64,000 nt of DNA, from assembly GCF_027213645.1 (NCBI RefSeq), contig NZ_JAPWGL010000001.1:558001-622000 (forward strand), read 5' to 3'. Each line of letters starts with the position of its first letter. The stretch's first letter is position 1. Below, piece by piece: positions 28,065 through 60,888 of this stretch. Position numbers and translations under genes: made by a program. Under the pieces are notes generated by a model. It searched no databases and was not told the DNA's origin. It saw nothing but the letters and a program-made list of their open reading frames with translations. The stretch comes from Pedobacter rhodius (lineage in GTDB: Bacteria > Bacteroidota > Bacteroidia > Sphingobacteriales > Sphingobacteriaceae).

Positions 28065-28399
28065 ATGTATATCAGTATTAATCAAATATGCATAAAGGAT
28101 AAAAATAAGTCTAAAAAGCTCCTTTCCCGAAATCAAGAATTTTATCCAGTCATATGGCTTATCCAGTTTAGTAGAATTCTAAAATACGTGGCGTCTTATA
28201 ATCCAAGTCATTAACATGGCTGTATAAACCAATATATTTGTTCGTTTTCTATAAATTAATAAATAAATGACGCAATTTCCAACAGTTTATACATTGTTGT
28301 TTTAAAAATTCCTTGGTTTTAATAAGCTTAAATATCATTTTAATTACCGGATTAAGTTTTAACCAAACCAAAAACATATCCGGTTTTTGCTTATCCAGA
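28065..28399. other. Non-coding spacer between the tRNA terminator and the tandem array
   Basis: About 335 bp, AT-rich, with no ORF, RNA fold or promoter that I can support. Confidence 0.4.
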
Positions 28400-28736
28400 A
28401 ATCAGCTAAATCTGCGGGAGAAACAACGATGCATTTAATAAATAATGCAACAAGATTCCCCGCATACATGAGAATAACGACTTATGGAAACCATACCATC
28501 TGCGGAAAATCAGCGAAATCTGCGGGAGAAATACGGACACATTTAATGAAGTAGTGCATTAAGATTCCCCGCATGCCTGAGAATAACGACTTATGGCGAC
28601 CATACCATCTGCGGAAAATCAGCGAAATCTGCGGGAGAAATACGGACACATTTAATGAAGTAGTGCATTAAGATTCCCCGCATACATGAGAATAACGACT
28701 TATGGACACCATGCCATCTGCGGAAAATCAGCGGAA
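28400..28736 (+). repeat. Tandem array of a ~109-bp unit (about 3 copies)
   Basis: The words TCTGCGGGAG at 28411, 28519 and 28628 mark units 108 and 109 bp apart; a fourth partial start is at about 28727. Units 2 and 3 are nearly identical, and unit 1 differs more. Each contains GATTCCCCGCAT and GAATAACGACTTATGG, words also found in inverted orientation around the hairpin at 30867-30886, so the array is an amplified member of a dispersed family. It lies just upstream of the mgtE promoter. There are no unique spacers, so it is not CRISPR. Confidence 0.85.
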
Positions 28737-32093: not shown

Positions 32094-32129
32094 TTATATA
32101 TTAGTATTTGTTAATTCGTTTTCCGTCAT

Positions 32130-32190
32130 CCATCGTCCATCGTCCATCGTCCATCGTCCATCGTCCATCGTCCATCGTCCATCGTCCATC
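32130..32190. repeat. Heptanucleotide tandem array (CCATCGT), 8.7 copies
   Basis: Eight perfect head-to-tail copies of CCATCGT plus CCATC. It lies between ychF (minus) and the DUF5362 gene (plus), in the probable 5' region of ychF. Perfect short-unit arrays of this kind can change copy number by slippage. Confidence 0.95.
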
Positions 32191-46799: not shown

Positions 46800-47948
46800 A
46801 TGAAAAGAGTTTATTTAGATAATGCAGCTACAACGCCTTTAGATGCGGCTGTAATCGCTGAAATGACAAACGTGATGGAGAACTATTTTGGTAATCCATC
46901 GGCTATTCATGCGCTTGGTCGTGAGGTTAGAACCTTGGTTGAGAAAGCCCGTAAAACGGTTGCAAATCTTTTGGGTGCTTCACCGTCAGAAATTTTCTTT
47001 ACTTCAGGCGGTACCGAAGCGGATAATACGGCCATTCGTTGCGGTATATCTGCTTATGGGATTAAACATGCCATCACTTCAAAAATTGAGCACCATGCAG
47101 TTGAGCATACGCTAAATATGATGCTTAAAAATGGAGAAATTGAGAAGTTAAGTTTCGTTAACATCGATGAAAAAGGTAATGTAGATTACGCCCATTTAGA
47201 AGAGTTATTGCAAAACAACGAGCGTACTTTTGTATCGTTAATGCATGCGAACAACGAATTGGGCACACTAACCGATATGATTAAAGTTGGCGATATCTGC
47301 GAAAAATATAACGCGATTTATCATGCAGATACCGTTCAAACCATGGGACATTATGTACATAACGTGCGTGAGTTAAAAGCGCATTTCATTGTTTGTGCAG
47401 CACATAAACTTCATGGCCCGAAAGGTGTGGGTTTCCTGTATGTAAACAGCAACATTAAAATTCCACCGATGATTTATGGTGGCGCACAAGAGCGTAATAT
47501 GCGGGGCGGAACGGAAAATGTTTACGGCATTGTTGGTTTAGCTAAAGCTCTGGAAATTGCTTACGCGGAGATGGAGCAACACCAAAACCATATTCAAGGA
47601 CTAAAAGATTATTTGAAAGAGGCTTTAGTTGCAGAAATTCCGGGTATTGCTTTCAATGGTGAAACCGATGCAGATAAAAGTCTTTATACGGTATTAAACG
47701 TATCTTTCCCTGAAATGGATATGGCCGATATGTTGTTGTTTAATTTAGATATTAACGGGATTTGCGCTTCAGGCGGAAGTGCCTGTTCGTCAGGATCGAA
47801 CATCGGTTCGCATGTTTTAAATGGCATTAAAGCCGATCCAAATCGTCCGTCTGTTCGTTTTTCCTTCAGCAAATTCACTACAAAAGAGGAATTGGATTAT
47901 GTAATTGAAAAAGTTAAAATGGTGGTTAAGCAGAATGCTTTAGCCTAA
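46800..47948 (+). CDS. Cysteine desulfurase (NifS/IscS family)
   Basis: 382 residues. PLP-enzyme features: YLDNAATTPLD start, TSGGTEADNTAI, KIEHHAVEH, the PLP lysine in AAHKLHGPKGVGF, and the catalytic Cys in GGSACSSGS. It takes sulfur from cysteine for Fe-S clusters or tRNA thiolation. The size and the SACSSGS loop point to the IscS-like class I group. No iscU or iscA is adjacent, so the pathway it feeds is not visible. It is co-directional with glmM and followed by a terminator. Confidence 0.93.
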   Translation: MKRVYLDNAATTPLDAAVIAEMTNVMENYFGNPSAIHALGREVRTLVEKARKTVANLLGASPSEIFFTSGGTEADNTAIRCGISAYGIKHAITSKIEHHAVEHTLNMMLKNGEIEKLSFVNIDEKGNVDYAHLEELLQNNERTFVSLMHANNELGTLTDMIKVGDICEKYNAIYHADTVQTMGHYVHNVRELKAHFIVCAAHKLHGPKGVGFLYVNSNIKIPPMIYGGAQERNMRGGTENVYGIVGLAKALEIAYAEMEQHQNHIQGLKDYLKEALVAEIPGIAFNGETDADKSLYTVLNVSFPEMDMADMLLFNLDINGICASGGSACSSGSNIGSHVLNGIKADPNRPSVRFSFSKFTTKEELDYVIEKVKMVVKQNALA

Positions 47949-47999: not shown

Positions 48000-48019
48000 G
48001 TGGAGTTTTTTTTAAAGTA

Positions 48020-48345
48020 TCTCCCTGGTTGGTGGCCCACCAACCATAAATATTGGCCGGTTAAAAGCTCGTAGAAGTGCTCGGTTTTGTTTCTTTTTAT
48101 CAAGAAAAAAGAAAGAGTCGTTCCGGCGGCGAGGTAAATAAATACGCCCTTGCATATCAACGCCATGGTTGGTGGCCCATCTCCCTGGTTGGTGGCCCAC
48201 CAACCATAAATATTGGCCGGTTAAAAGCTCGTAGAAGTGCTCGGTGTTGTTTCTTTTTATCAAGAAAAAAGAAAGAGTCATTCCGGCGGCGAGGTAAATA
48301 AATACGCTCTCGCATATCAACGCCATGGTTGGTGGCCCACCAACC
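48020..48345. repeat. REP/BIME cluster left of the RAYT gene
   Basis: Two ~160-bp direct repeats begin at 48021 and 48181 (CTCCCTGG). Each opens with the perfect 19-bp palindrome GGTTGGTGGCCCACCAACC (48027-48045 and 48187-48205). A half palindrome lies at 48167-48179 and another full one at 48327-48345. Inside each repeat is a second inverted repeat, TTTCTTTTT / AAAAAAGAAA. The two copies differ at only a few positions. The long minus-strand reading frame over them is an artefact of the repeat. Confidence 0.9.
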
Positions 48346-48378
48346 ATAAATATTGGCTGGCCATACATAAAAATGTTA

Positions 48379-48939
48379 TTAAAATCTATCTCTGTAGTTA
48401 GTTAGAATTTTAAATTCATCAACGCCATTTTCATAAAAAGTAGCGGAAGACCACCGATAATCTTCAGGCCGAGTCACTAAATTCCACCTTTCTTGAAGCG
48501 GGTTATTATGCATGTAGTTTAGTTTTTGTTCTAAAACATGAATATTAAACAGGTCTATTGCAAGTGGATCTCTTTGCCATATTCTATAGCTTCTGTCAGA
48601 CTCGCGAACCAAAAAGTGTTTTAATATTTGGGGATAGTTTATAATTAAATCTTTTTTTAATTCGTGAGAAGTTTCTTTTAGAAAACTCGAAGTTGGCTTT
48701 TCCTTTCCATTTGGTTTTATAGGTTTTAAAATAATATGAATATGATTTGGCATAATCACAAAACCATAAACTTCAATAAATTTATGGTCGACGAGTTTTT
48801 TTAATGAATCGATCACAATTTTTTTGTACGGCTCTGGATTGAGTAGCTTTTTCCAGTTCTTAATAGTACATGTCCAAAAATAAGTTTCGTTGTATTCCAG
48901 GAATGATTTTCTTCTATTTTTAAAAATATCAGAATTCAT
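48379..48939 (-). CDS. REP-associated tyrosine transposase (RAYT, Y1/HUH family)
   Basis: 186 residues. The Y1 transposase core is present: YFWTCTIKNWKKLL, the HUH motif in VIMPNHIHIIL (His66 and His68), and the catalytic Tyr142 in LNYMHNNPLQERW, then a WSSA end as in TnpA_REP proteins. RAYTs are single-copy domesticated relatives of IS200/IS605 transposases that nick and mobilise REP palindromes. The gene is bracketed by palindromes on both sides (48027-48345 and 48987-49058), the layout expected if it maintains this REP family. No terminal IS ends or accessory TnpB are seen. Confidence 0.92.
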   Translation of the reverse strand: MNSDIFKNRRKSFLEYNETYFWTCTIKNWKKLLNPEPYKKIVIDSLKKLVDHKFIEVYGFVIMPNHIHIILKPIKPNGKEKPTSSFLKETSHELKKDLIINYPQILKHFLVRESDRSYRIWQRDPLAIDLFNIHVLEQKLNYMHNNPLQERWNLVTRPEDYRWSSATFYENGVDEFKILTNYRDRF

Positions 48940-48986
48940 ATAAATACATTTTTACTAATATAATAAAATATGGCATTTCTTGGAGA

Positions 48987-49170
48987 GGTTGGTGGGCCAC
49001 CAACCACGGATGGAGAGATTTTTTTGAAAGTGTCTCCCTGGTTGGTGGCCCACCAACCATAAATATTGGCCGGTTAAAAGCTCGCAGAAGTGCTCGGTTT
49101 TGTTTCTTTTTATCAAGAAAAAAGAAAGAGTCGTTCCGGCGGTGAGGAATAAAAATACGCCCTTGCATAT
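48987..49170. repeat. REP/BIME cluster right of the RAYT gene
   Basis: One palindrome at 48987-49005 has the opposite centre base (GGTTGGTGG-G-CCACCAACC), i.e. inverted orientation, and carries GGAG next to its 5' side. A second at 49040-49058 starts a third copy of the long repeat seen at 48021 and 48181, which runs to about 49170 (CTTGCATATC). With the left cluster there are five full palindromes and one half. Confidence 0.9.
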
Positions 49171-49387
49171 CTCAAAATAAAGCCTTAAATTTAATTAAGA
49201 TAAAGGCAATCCAATTTGCCAATAAAATATAGGTCCTAAACGAAACCTTATCAAAAAAACCCATGGTATAAGGTTAAGCAAATTTCACAAGAGCTTTTTG
49301 ATTTCTTGAAAGGAGAGTCAATATAAATTTGTTTTAAAATTATTAAACCCACGAAAGCAATCAAAGCTTTCTATAAATCTTATCGTT
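49171..49387. other. Spacer right of the REP module
   Basis: About 217 bp, AT-rich. I see no gene, promoter or repeat in it. Confidence 0.3.
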
Positions 49388-59246: not shown

Positions 59247-59257
59247 TTAAACCCTCC

Positions 59258-59369
59258 GTCATTGCGAGGCATGAAGCAATCTTAAAGCGTTCGCTATAAA
59301 AGTGATGTCTTCAACAAATTAAAATCCCACCCATAGTTGTAGGATTGCTTCGTGCCTTGCAATGACGAC
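59258..59369. repeat. MITE-like element, copy 1 (112 bp, ~24-bp terminal inverted repeats)
   Basis: Ends GTCATTGCGAGGCATGAAG and CTTCGTGCCTTGCAATGAC are inverted over about 24 bp with two mismatches; GCAATC and GATTGC lie just inside. The interior carries AAAGCGTTCGCTATAAAAG and CCCACCCATAGTTG. A second copy in the same orientation begins 494 bp downstream, and the GIY-YIG gene lies between them. Confidence 0.9.
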
Positions 59370-59451: not shown

Positions 59452-59745
59452 ATGGAAAGAGGGGGCTGTGTTTACATCATGACAAATTCTTTTAACAACG
59501 TTTTATATGTTGGAGTAACTTCAGATTTACGAAGTAGAATTTGGCAGCATAAGAATAACGAATTTCCAAAAAGTTTTACTTCTAAATATAAATGCTATAA
59601 GCTTGTATATTTTATGTTTTTTCCGACAATAGAGGATGCTATTGCTGAAGAAAAAAGAATTAAAGGAGGAAGCCGTCAGCAAAAAATTAATTTGATTATT
59701 GGCTTAAATCCAAGTTGGAAAGATTTTTATGACGAATTGGATTAA
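59452..59745 (+). CDS. Single-domain GIY-YIG nuclease-like protein
   Basis: 97 residues, all one GIY-YIG domain: GGCVYIMTN, LYVGVTSDLRSRIWQHK (with the catalytic Arg), FPKSFTSKYKCYKLVYF, EDAIAEEKRIKGGSRQQKI (with the metal-binding Glu) and a NPSWKDFYDEL end. The family cuts DNA with one divalent metal; stand-alone members of this short type are common in Bacteroidota and have no assigned role. It lies between two direct copies of a ~112-bp inverted-repeat element, which may point to a link with repeat mobility. Confidence 0.92.
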   Translation: MERGGCVYIMTNSFNNVLYVGVTSDLRSRIWQHKNNEFPKSFTSKYKCYKLVYFMFFPTIEDAIAEEKRIKGGSRQQKINLIIGLNPSWKDFYDELD

Positions 59746-59751
59746 GTTTAC

Positions 59752-59862
59752 GTCATTGCGAGGTACGAAGCAATCTTAAAGCGTTCGCTAGAAAAGTGAT
59801 GTCCTCAACAAATTAAAATCCCACCCATAGTTGTAGGATTGCTTCGCGCTCGAAATGACGAC
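59752..59862. repeat. MITE-like element, copy 2 (111 bp)
   Basis: Nearly identical to the copy at 59258-59369 over its length, in the same orientation. It has GTCATTGCGAGGTACGAAG and CTTCGCGCTCGAAATGAC at the ends; the right end has drifted more than in copy 1. It begins 6 nt after the GIY-YIG stop and is 24 nt from the HMG-CoA lyase stop. Confidence 0.9.
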
Positions 59863-60833: not shown

Positions 60834-60888
60834 CTAAACGCTAAACGCTAAACGCTAAACGCTAAACGCTAAACGCTAAACGCTAAAC
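60834..60888. repeat. Heptanucleotide tandem array (CTAAACG), 7.9 copies
   Basis: Seven perfect copies of CTAAACG plus CTAAAC. The final partial unit contains the stop codon of the NDH-2 gene (CTA at 60883-60885 is TAG on the minus strand), so the array runs directly from that gene's 3' end towards the HMG-CoA lyase gene. Confidence 0.95.

Follow-up and report, generated by a model that had tools for sequence, protein, structure and literature searches.

RAYT/REP modules, their Bacteroidetes subclass and tandem REPIN clusters that take in flanking DNA (PMC3116915, as far as its text is accessible) are already known. RAYT subclass 2.6, in the accessible part of PMC6006769, comprises Bacteroidetes proteins with the motifs NH[LIV]H, WQ and YIH[QN]NP and a C-terminal SS, accompanied by atypical hairpins. 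In Pseudomonas, tandem REPIN clusters with flanking DNA have been taken as pointing to a second, cluster-forming mechanism, according to the available text of PMC3116915. The sections of PMC8266576 that we could draw on state that the mechanism of REP dissemination is still to be elucidated and that evidence for tnpAREP mobility is lacking, and a Chryseobacterium study infers such mobility from a changed neighbourhood (PMC11194056, accessible part). Long host-DNA repeats abutting RAYT cassettes are the subject of no report that we found in the open literature (PMC, in the portions available), which within this scope is no proof of absence.

We analyzed a 64,000-nt stretch of the Pedobacter rhodius genome (the window; the genome comprises 4.68 Mb in 11 contigs), in which a RAYT gene is surrounded by five full copies and one half copy of a palindrome (Table 1). 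All six, as counted in an earlier sequence-only reading of the window, were located, and 100 shuffled versions of the window yielded no palindrome match at ≤3 mismatches (0/100). REP1, REP2, REP3 and REP5 lie on the plus strand, and REP4, judged from its odd central base, is in reverse sense, as that reading had it. The elements follow the order L-REP1-X1-half REP-REP2-X2-REP3-RAYT-REP4-REP5-X3-Y. The ~160-bp direct repeat opened by three of the palindromes was likewise recovered: copies of 160 nt starting at 48019 and 48179 are 98% identical, and a third at 49032 is 84% identical over 160 nt without gaps and 96% identical over its first 139 nt, with the REP first in each. CTCC adjoins REP1, REP2 and REP5, GGAG is one base away from REP4, and REP3 carries CGCCAT instead. 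The likeness of L to the stretch before REP5 is weak, covering 15 nt at 87%; the RAYT gene itself contains an equally good match at 48796, so this repeat of L may be due to chance.

Table 1. Features of the RAYT locus (positions are those of the window)
Feature	Position	Strand	Remarks
L, T-rich left flank	48003..48018	+	similar stretch at 49020-49034, left of REP5
REP1 palindrome	48027..48045	+	outer tag CTCCCT immediately to the left
X1, duplicated DNA copy 1	48047..48166	+	
Hairpin within X	48090..48114	+	second inverted repeat of the sequence-only reading
Half REP	48167..48179	+	breaks near palindrome centre, fused to REP2 tag
REP2 palindrome	48187..48205	+	
X2, duplicated DNA copy 2	48207..48326	+	
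REP3 palindrome	48327..48345	+	adjoins 3' end of RAYT gene
RAYT gene	48379..48939	-	186 aa; HUH His66/His68, catalytic Tyr142, WQ and C-terminal SS motifs
REP4 palindrome	48987..49005	-	inverted; adjoins 5' end of RAYT gene
REP5 palindrome	49040..49058	+	
X3, duplicated DNA copy	49060..49171	+	runs on into downstream segment Y, as does its 3' half in RAYT-less G132
Y, native downstream segment	49172..49588	+	RAYT on opposite side of Y in four other species

The encoded protein matches the NCBIfam RAYT model NF047646 (E=4.9e-19, 68.7 bits, below the equivalog cut-off of 80 bits) and Pfam Y1_Tnp (21.2 bits, below the gathering score of 23 bits); these below-cut-off scores reflect a library threshold, not a biological feature. 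His66, His68 and Tyr142, already singled out from the sequence alone as the HUH and tyrosine residues, are invariant in an alignment of 26 sequences. The AlphaFold model (pLDDT 93) has as its best PDB match 4ER8, a RAYT bound to a REP hairpin (E=1.6e-8, TM 0.60). The core of a Y1-type HUH nuclease is thus present, with the HUH motif, a single catalytic Tyr and a predicted fold like that of 4ER8. The protein carries NHIH, WQ and WSS, together with a Y motif, YMHNNP, that is one residue off the YIH[QN]NP of subclass 2.6, and its gene is flanked by inverted REPs, REP3 and REP4 being in opposite senses. The genome has six RAYT-like genes in all, others being L035 (G000:C7:211489), L036 (G000:C1:997663), L038 (G000:C5:286214) and L040 (G000:C5:564154); different palindromes, e.g. 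CCCGCTCGTTTGTAACGAGCGGG and AGCGCAAGCGTCCCGCTTGTGCT, lie near the other genes.

A search of this genome at ≤3 mismatches matched the palindrome at 40 distinct places (reversed control: 0), 34 of which lie away from the locus; exact copies are found at the locus only. A related family, GGTTGGTGTCTCACCGACC, often paired, is likewise dispersed. Copy number is therefore in the tens (40 near copies), below the criterion of >100 per genome given in the accessible text of PMC2817692. The palindrome core TGGTTGGTGNNNCACCAACCA is present in 32 of 145 genus genomes, with 1–21 copies each and 8 in this genome, and some of these sit at RAYT loci themselves (4/8 in this genome). A RAYT at E≤1e-10, counted for any subfamily and not necessarily close to the window RAYT, was found in 74/145 genomes: in 31/32 with the core (the exception being G087) and in 43/113 without it (Fisher 3.5e-10, relatedness ignored). 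The sequence-only reading had named two outcomes that would count against it, palindromes confined to this locus or equally common in relatives lacking the gene; since near copies of the palindrome are dispersed and its core goes with RAYT presence, neither is what we found. A second REP family, counted in four genomes, had 1–7 copies in each, too few for statistics.

Across 30 RAYT loci (29 from relatives plus the window locus), a GTG..CAC palindrome lies ≤350 nt from the RAYT on at least one side in 30/30 and on both sides in 25/30, as counted without a control set. Outer tags recur and vary by family, being CTCCC and CGCCAT here and often TCC or CTA elsewhere; at the REP foot these take the place of a GT(A/G)G tag, which is absent. 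On the tree of the 30 RAYTs, REP stem type can be accounted for by 5 changes, whereas shuffled types average 14.6 (0/200 shuffles as low), and palindrome stem type, judged by this count, follows the RAYT tree. These data support the RAYT/REP reading of the window: the module is a REPtron of Pedobacter, that is, a predicted HUH-tyrosine nuclease with REP palindromes and a low-copy dispersed REP family.

The sequence-only reading also suggested that the 160-bp unit, which contains a second inverted repeat, may be a compound BIME recognised by the RAYT. Three locus copies of 140–160 nt, each with a REP at its start, would suit that view, but a search of this genome returned the whole unit at the window locus only. 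The remaining matches cover the inner stretch: sequences resembling the inner hairpin part of X occur at ten other places, and a REP scan near these ten found none. Other REP loci carry different, locus-specific spacers. In G132, where neither RAYT nor REP was found upstream of Y, the 3' half of X occurs once, as host DNA running directly into Y, and its 5' half is unmatched there. At the window locus X1 and X2 break off after GCATATC into a REP, and X3 continues to Y. We therefore reject the compound BIME, which is highly improbable for a unit that is not dispersed and whose 3' half of X stands in G132 without RAYT or REP; the 160-bp unit is best read as a REP plus captured host DNA, not as a recognition unit.

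Comparison with close relatives bears on whether the gene has moved. One view sees in the RAYT a domesticated host gene that does not move, and in the nearby palindromes transcription terminators or regulatory hairpins; in keeping with it, RAYTs have been described as behaving like housekeeping genes with no evidence of mobility (PMC8266576, accessible sections), and in 7 species the window RAYT clade keeps to one interval, bounded by the same pair of neighbour genes. However, six close relatives with these neighbours (G044, G132, G026, G040, G002 and G090) have no RAYT and no REP from the aminotransferase gene (class V by Pfam, 46800-47948) to Y. Within the window clade, moreover, Y follows the RAYT in this genome and G136 but precedes it in G085, G003, G042 and G121 (no Y was detected in G091), and G136 nests within the after-Y group in the RAYT tree with support 95/84, so that both sides of Y are used inside one supported clade. 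A second copy of Y beside the RAYT, considered as the reason for this, was rejected, none being found in six window-clade relatives. The near-identical cassette pair of G082, described below, also speaks against an immobile gene, and we consider that view improbable. RAYTs are usually called domesticated, but the cassettes here look mobile or strongly rearranging. Two further features were seen in this clade: the RAYT of G136 (L309, 2133-2691) is read in two frames, so that copy may be broken, and in G121 (L068, 1279-1542) a 128-bp repeat beside the RAYT gene takes in ~42 nt from the 3' end of that gene.

G082 holds two cassettes, on contigs C10 and C1, that are 99.7% identical over 676 bp. 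The C1 cassette lies between 512-bp repeats, 95% alike, each made up of ~133 bp of the native HTH gene end, 344 bp from the end of an FAD oxidoreductase gene and a REP. The FAD oxidoreductase gene is open in full beside the C10 cassette, and DNA from beside that cassette is present, duplicated, beside the C1 cassette. In G073 and G062 the HTH gene and its end are present with no cassette and no REP, the second site being empty. These comparisons provide good evidence that a cassette was copied to a new site together with surrounding DNA, and the near-identity of the pair gives it the look of a recent case. The 344-bp copies are 94–97% alike as against 99.7% for the cassettes, which suggests that the duplication and the arrival of the cassette may be separate events, or that the cassette was converted. 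Only the first 34 of the 344 bp occur in G073 and G062, as the AAACCTTA..AGGTT repeat (in G073 at the same place), and it is at this repeat that the end of the HTH gene meets the captured DNA, so homologous recombination may have helped. A palindrome like AAACCTTATAGGTTTTTAAAACCTATAAGGTTTG is found at the G082 junction and is dispersed (L316, 2060-2094; L317, 2608-2642; a similar one in the X of L054, 1422-1493).

After masking known REPs, we compared the left flank with the right flank at 35 RAYT loci for direct repeats of at least 30 bp, and 15/35 were bracketed before exclusions. L035 and L038 were excluded, their repeats being unmasked palindromes of other RAYT families, which left 11/29 relatives' loci and 2/6 of this genome's own (the window locus and L036), against 5/201 control segments. 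The Fisher value of 5.4e-8, like that of 3.5e-10 for core against RAYT, ignores relatedness; the 29 relatives' loci include orthologues, and with several occupied loci orthologous these are not independent cases. The control set is gene-rich, consisting of window sequence plus one orthologous locus in 29 relatives rather than matched intergenic DNA, and its five matches comprise four segments of the window (5.5-9 kb) plus a single one at L146. The bracketing repeats of the 11 relatives' cassettes are 34–484 bp of non-REP DNA, and the X copies in the test are mostly old (78–95% alike). In 6 of the 11 (L073, L076, L081, L085, L089 and L093) both copies end ≤18 nt from the outer palindromes; cassettes without a bracket make up 18/29. 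The direct repeat of the window locus is the mark of a past rearrangement, and marks of this kind recur at related modules.

Such repeats extend to REPs away from RAYT genes. Among the 21 dispersed REP clusters of this genome covered by the repeat test, six have them (L006, L008, L046, L050, L052 and L054), and two REP pattern searches gave 46 loci, 7 at a RAYT, with 4 of the other 39 bracketed (L187, L188, L224 and L196, the last being L006 of this genome under a second label). At the dispersed REPs L052, L054, L006, L008 and L224, but not at L187, both X copies likewise end ≤18 nt from the outer palindromes. A control on random pieces of the window (up to 300, overlaps with the locus skipped) gave 18 matches from three places, namely paralogous genes, a REP-free tandem of a 109-bp unit and the repeats that flank a GIY-YIG ORF; direct repeats without REPs therefore occur too. 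The tandem array (28399-28733) has 3.1 copies of its unit with 91% matches and no REP palindrome seen. The GIY-YIG ORF is small (59479-59745) and flanked by 113-bp direct repeats (59257-59369 and 59751-59862, 93%); it is possibly another nuclease tied to a repeat family. The window also contains perfect heptamer arrays at 32122-32190 (TCCATCG, ~9 copies) and 60834-60888 (CTAAACG, ~8 copies), which could be variable or regulatory repeats.

The repeats can include gene ends. In G034 a 78-bp X combines the terminal 19 nt of a DUF58 gene with intergenic DNA, and a RAYT cassette lies between its two copies; G122, 93% identical at this site, has one X, no REP and no RAYT, and among the best 30 loci for the site 11 carry a RAYT. 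At L052, X covers codons 1–8 of the ORF that lies downstream, with the start as picked by the ORF tool. A duplicated gene end is the derived state, and each empty site could represent either the original state or clean loss by X-X recombination. In G073 and G078, different X sequences are found at apparently one locus, which fits recurrent local duplication as well as insertion.

We rate the following as the best explanation of these observations, with an even chance of being right: the locus is a Pedobacter REPtron, RAYT strand transfer at inverted REPs would leave the arrangement X-element-X, and the 160-bp unit is REP plus host DNA. Under this model, RAYT would nick a REP at its outer foot in single-stranded DNA and then join the strand to another site, either close by or new. 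Since a cassette or REPIN has its two REPs in inverted orientation, its ends would be processed on different strands, giving two joints at independent places, and fill-in would leave the stretch between them on both sides. Strand transfer on opposite strands could in this way, as far as the sequences allow us to infer, produce a long target duplication of variable length. Later exchange between REPs or X copies might expand (REP-X)n arrays, as in the window, or might delete the element so that one X remains.

The main rival is unequal exchange by host enzymes. The REPtron would be real, and the long duplications would come from the host only, by slippage at hairpins or unequal homologous exchange between REPs or short repeats, with no part for RAYT. 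The REP-X-REP-X-REP of the window is the expected product of unequal exchange between two REPs around X, and the HTH joint of G082 at a repeat that G073 has in the same place, the REP-less direct repeats in the window and the Pseudomonas fluorescens clusters that include flanking DNA (PMC3116915, accessible text) all agree with such an origin. Exchange between REPs would, however, leave a REP in each copy, and at the single-element X-element-X loci (L052, L081, L073, L089 and L093) the element stands where the X copies meet, and X itself showed no REP; moreover, a copying step is needed for a near-identical cassette to be present at another site. We regard host exchange alone as a serious possibility but lean against it.

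A wider generalization, which we offer tentatively and consider doubtful, is that Bacteroidota RAYT cassettes and REPINs are mobile, insert with variable target duplications of ~40–500 bp, since opposite strands are used to join their inverted REP ends, and can carry neighbouring DNA to new sites. If so, the target duplication could keep a gene intact when an insertion hits its end and would allow clean loss of the element by recombination. REP spread and RAYT self-movement are described as unresolved in the accessible part of PMC8266576. The Pedobacter cases have both ends readable, the duplicated DNA abutting REP ends marking candidate joint positions, and these positions together with the G082 pair open the strand-transfer model to tests on sequences and in vitro.

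Among known systems, the IS200/IS605 transposases are related to the window's Y1 HUH nuclease, but those elements make no larger target duplications according to the accessible text of PMC2817692, whereas here inverted palindromes and long direct repeats flank the cassette. Such direct repeats flank the window cassette and 11/29 relatives' cassettes, duplication at insertion being a candidate reading. The E. coli REPtron (TnpAREP, GTAG REPs, 4ER8) resembles the modelled fold of the window RAYT and shares inverted REPs on both sides of the gene and a tag at the palindrome foot (PMC2817692 and PMC8266576, available parts); it differs in its GTAG tag and hundreds of REPs, compared with CTCCC, CGCCAT, TCC or CTA and tens of REPs in Pedobacter. 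The REPIN clusters of Pseudomonas fluorescens SBW25 are alike in being tandem repeats that include flanking sequence (PMC3116915, in the text available), but in Pedobacter the repeats also surround RAYT cassettes, may enclose a single element between two X copies and involve few REPs. RAYT/TnpAREP subclass 2.6 (Bertels group 5; PMC6006769, accessible part) shares NH[LIV]H, WQ, SS, a length of ~179 aa, a Bacteroidota host and atypical hairpins at the flanks, which also occur elsewhere in the genome. Its Y motif is YIH[QN]NP as against YMHNNP in the window RAYT, and long host-DNA duplications around cassettes are not mentioned in the accessible text of that source; relative to that account, the present analysis distinguishes REP types and tags within one genus and relates them to RAYT clades.
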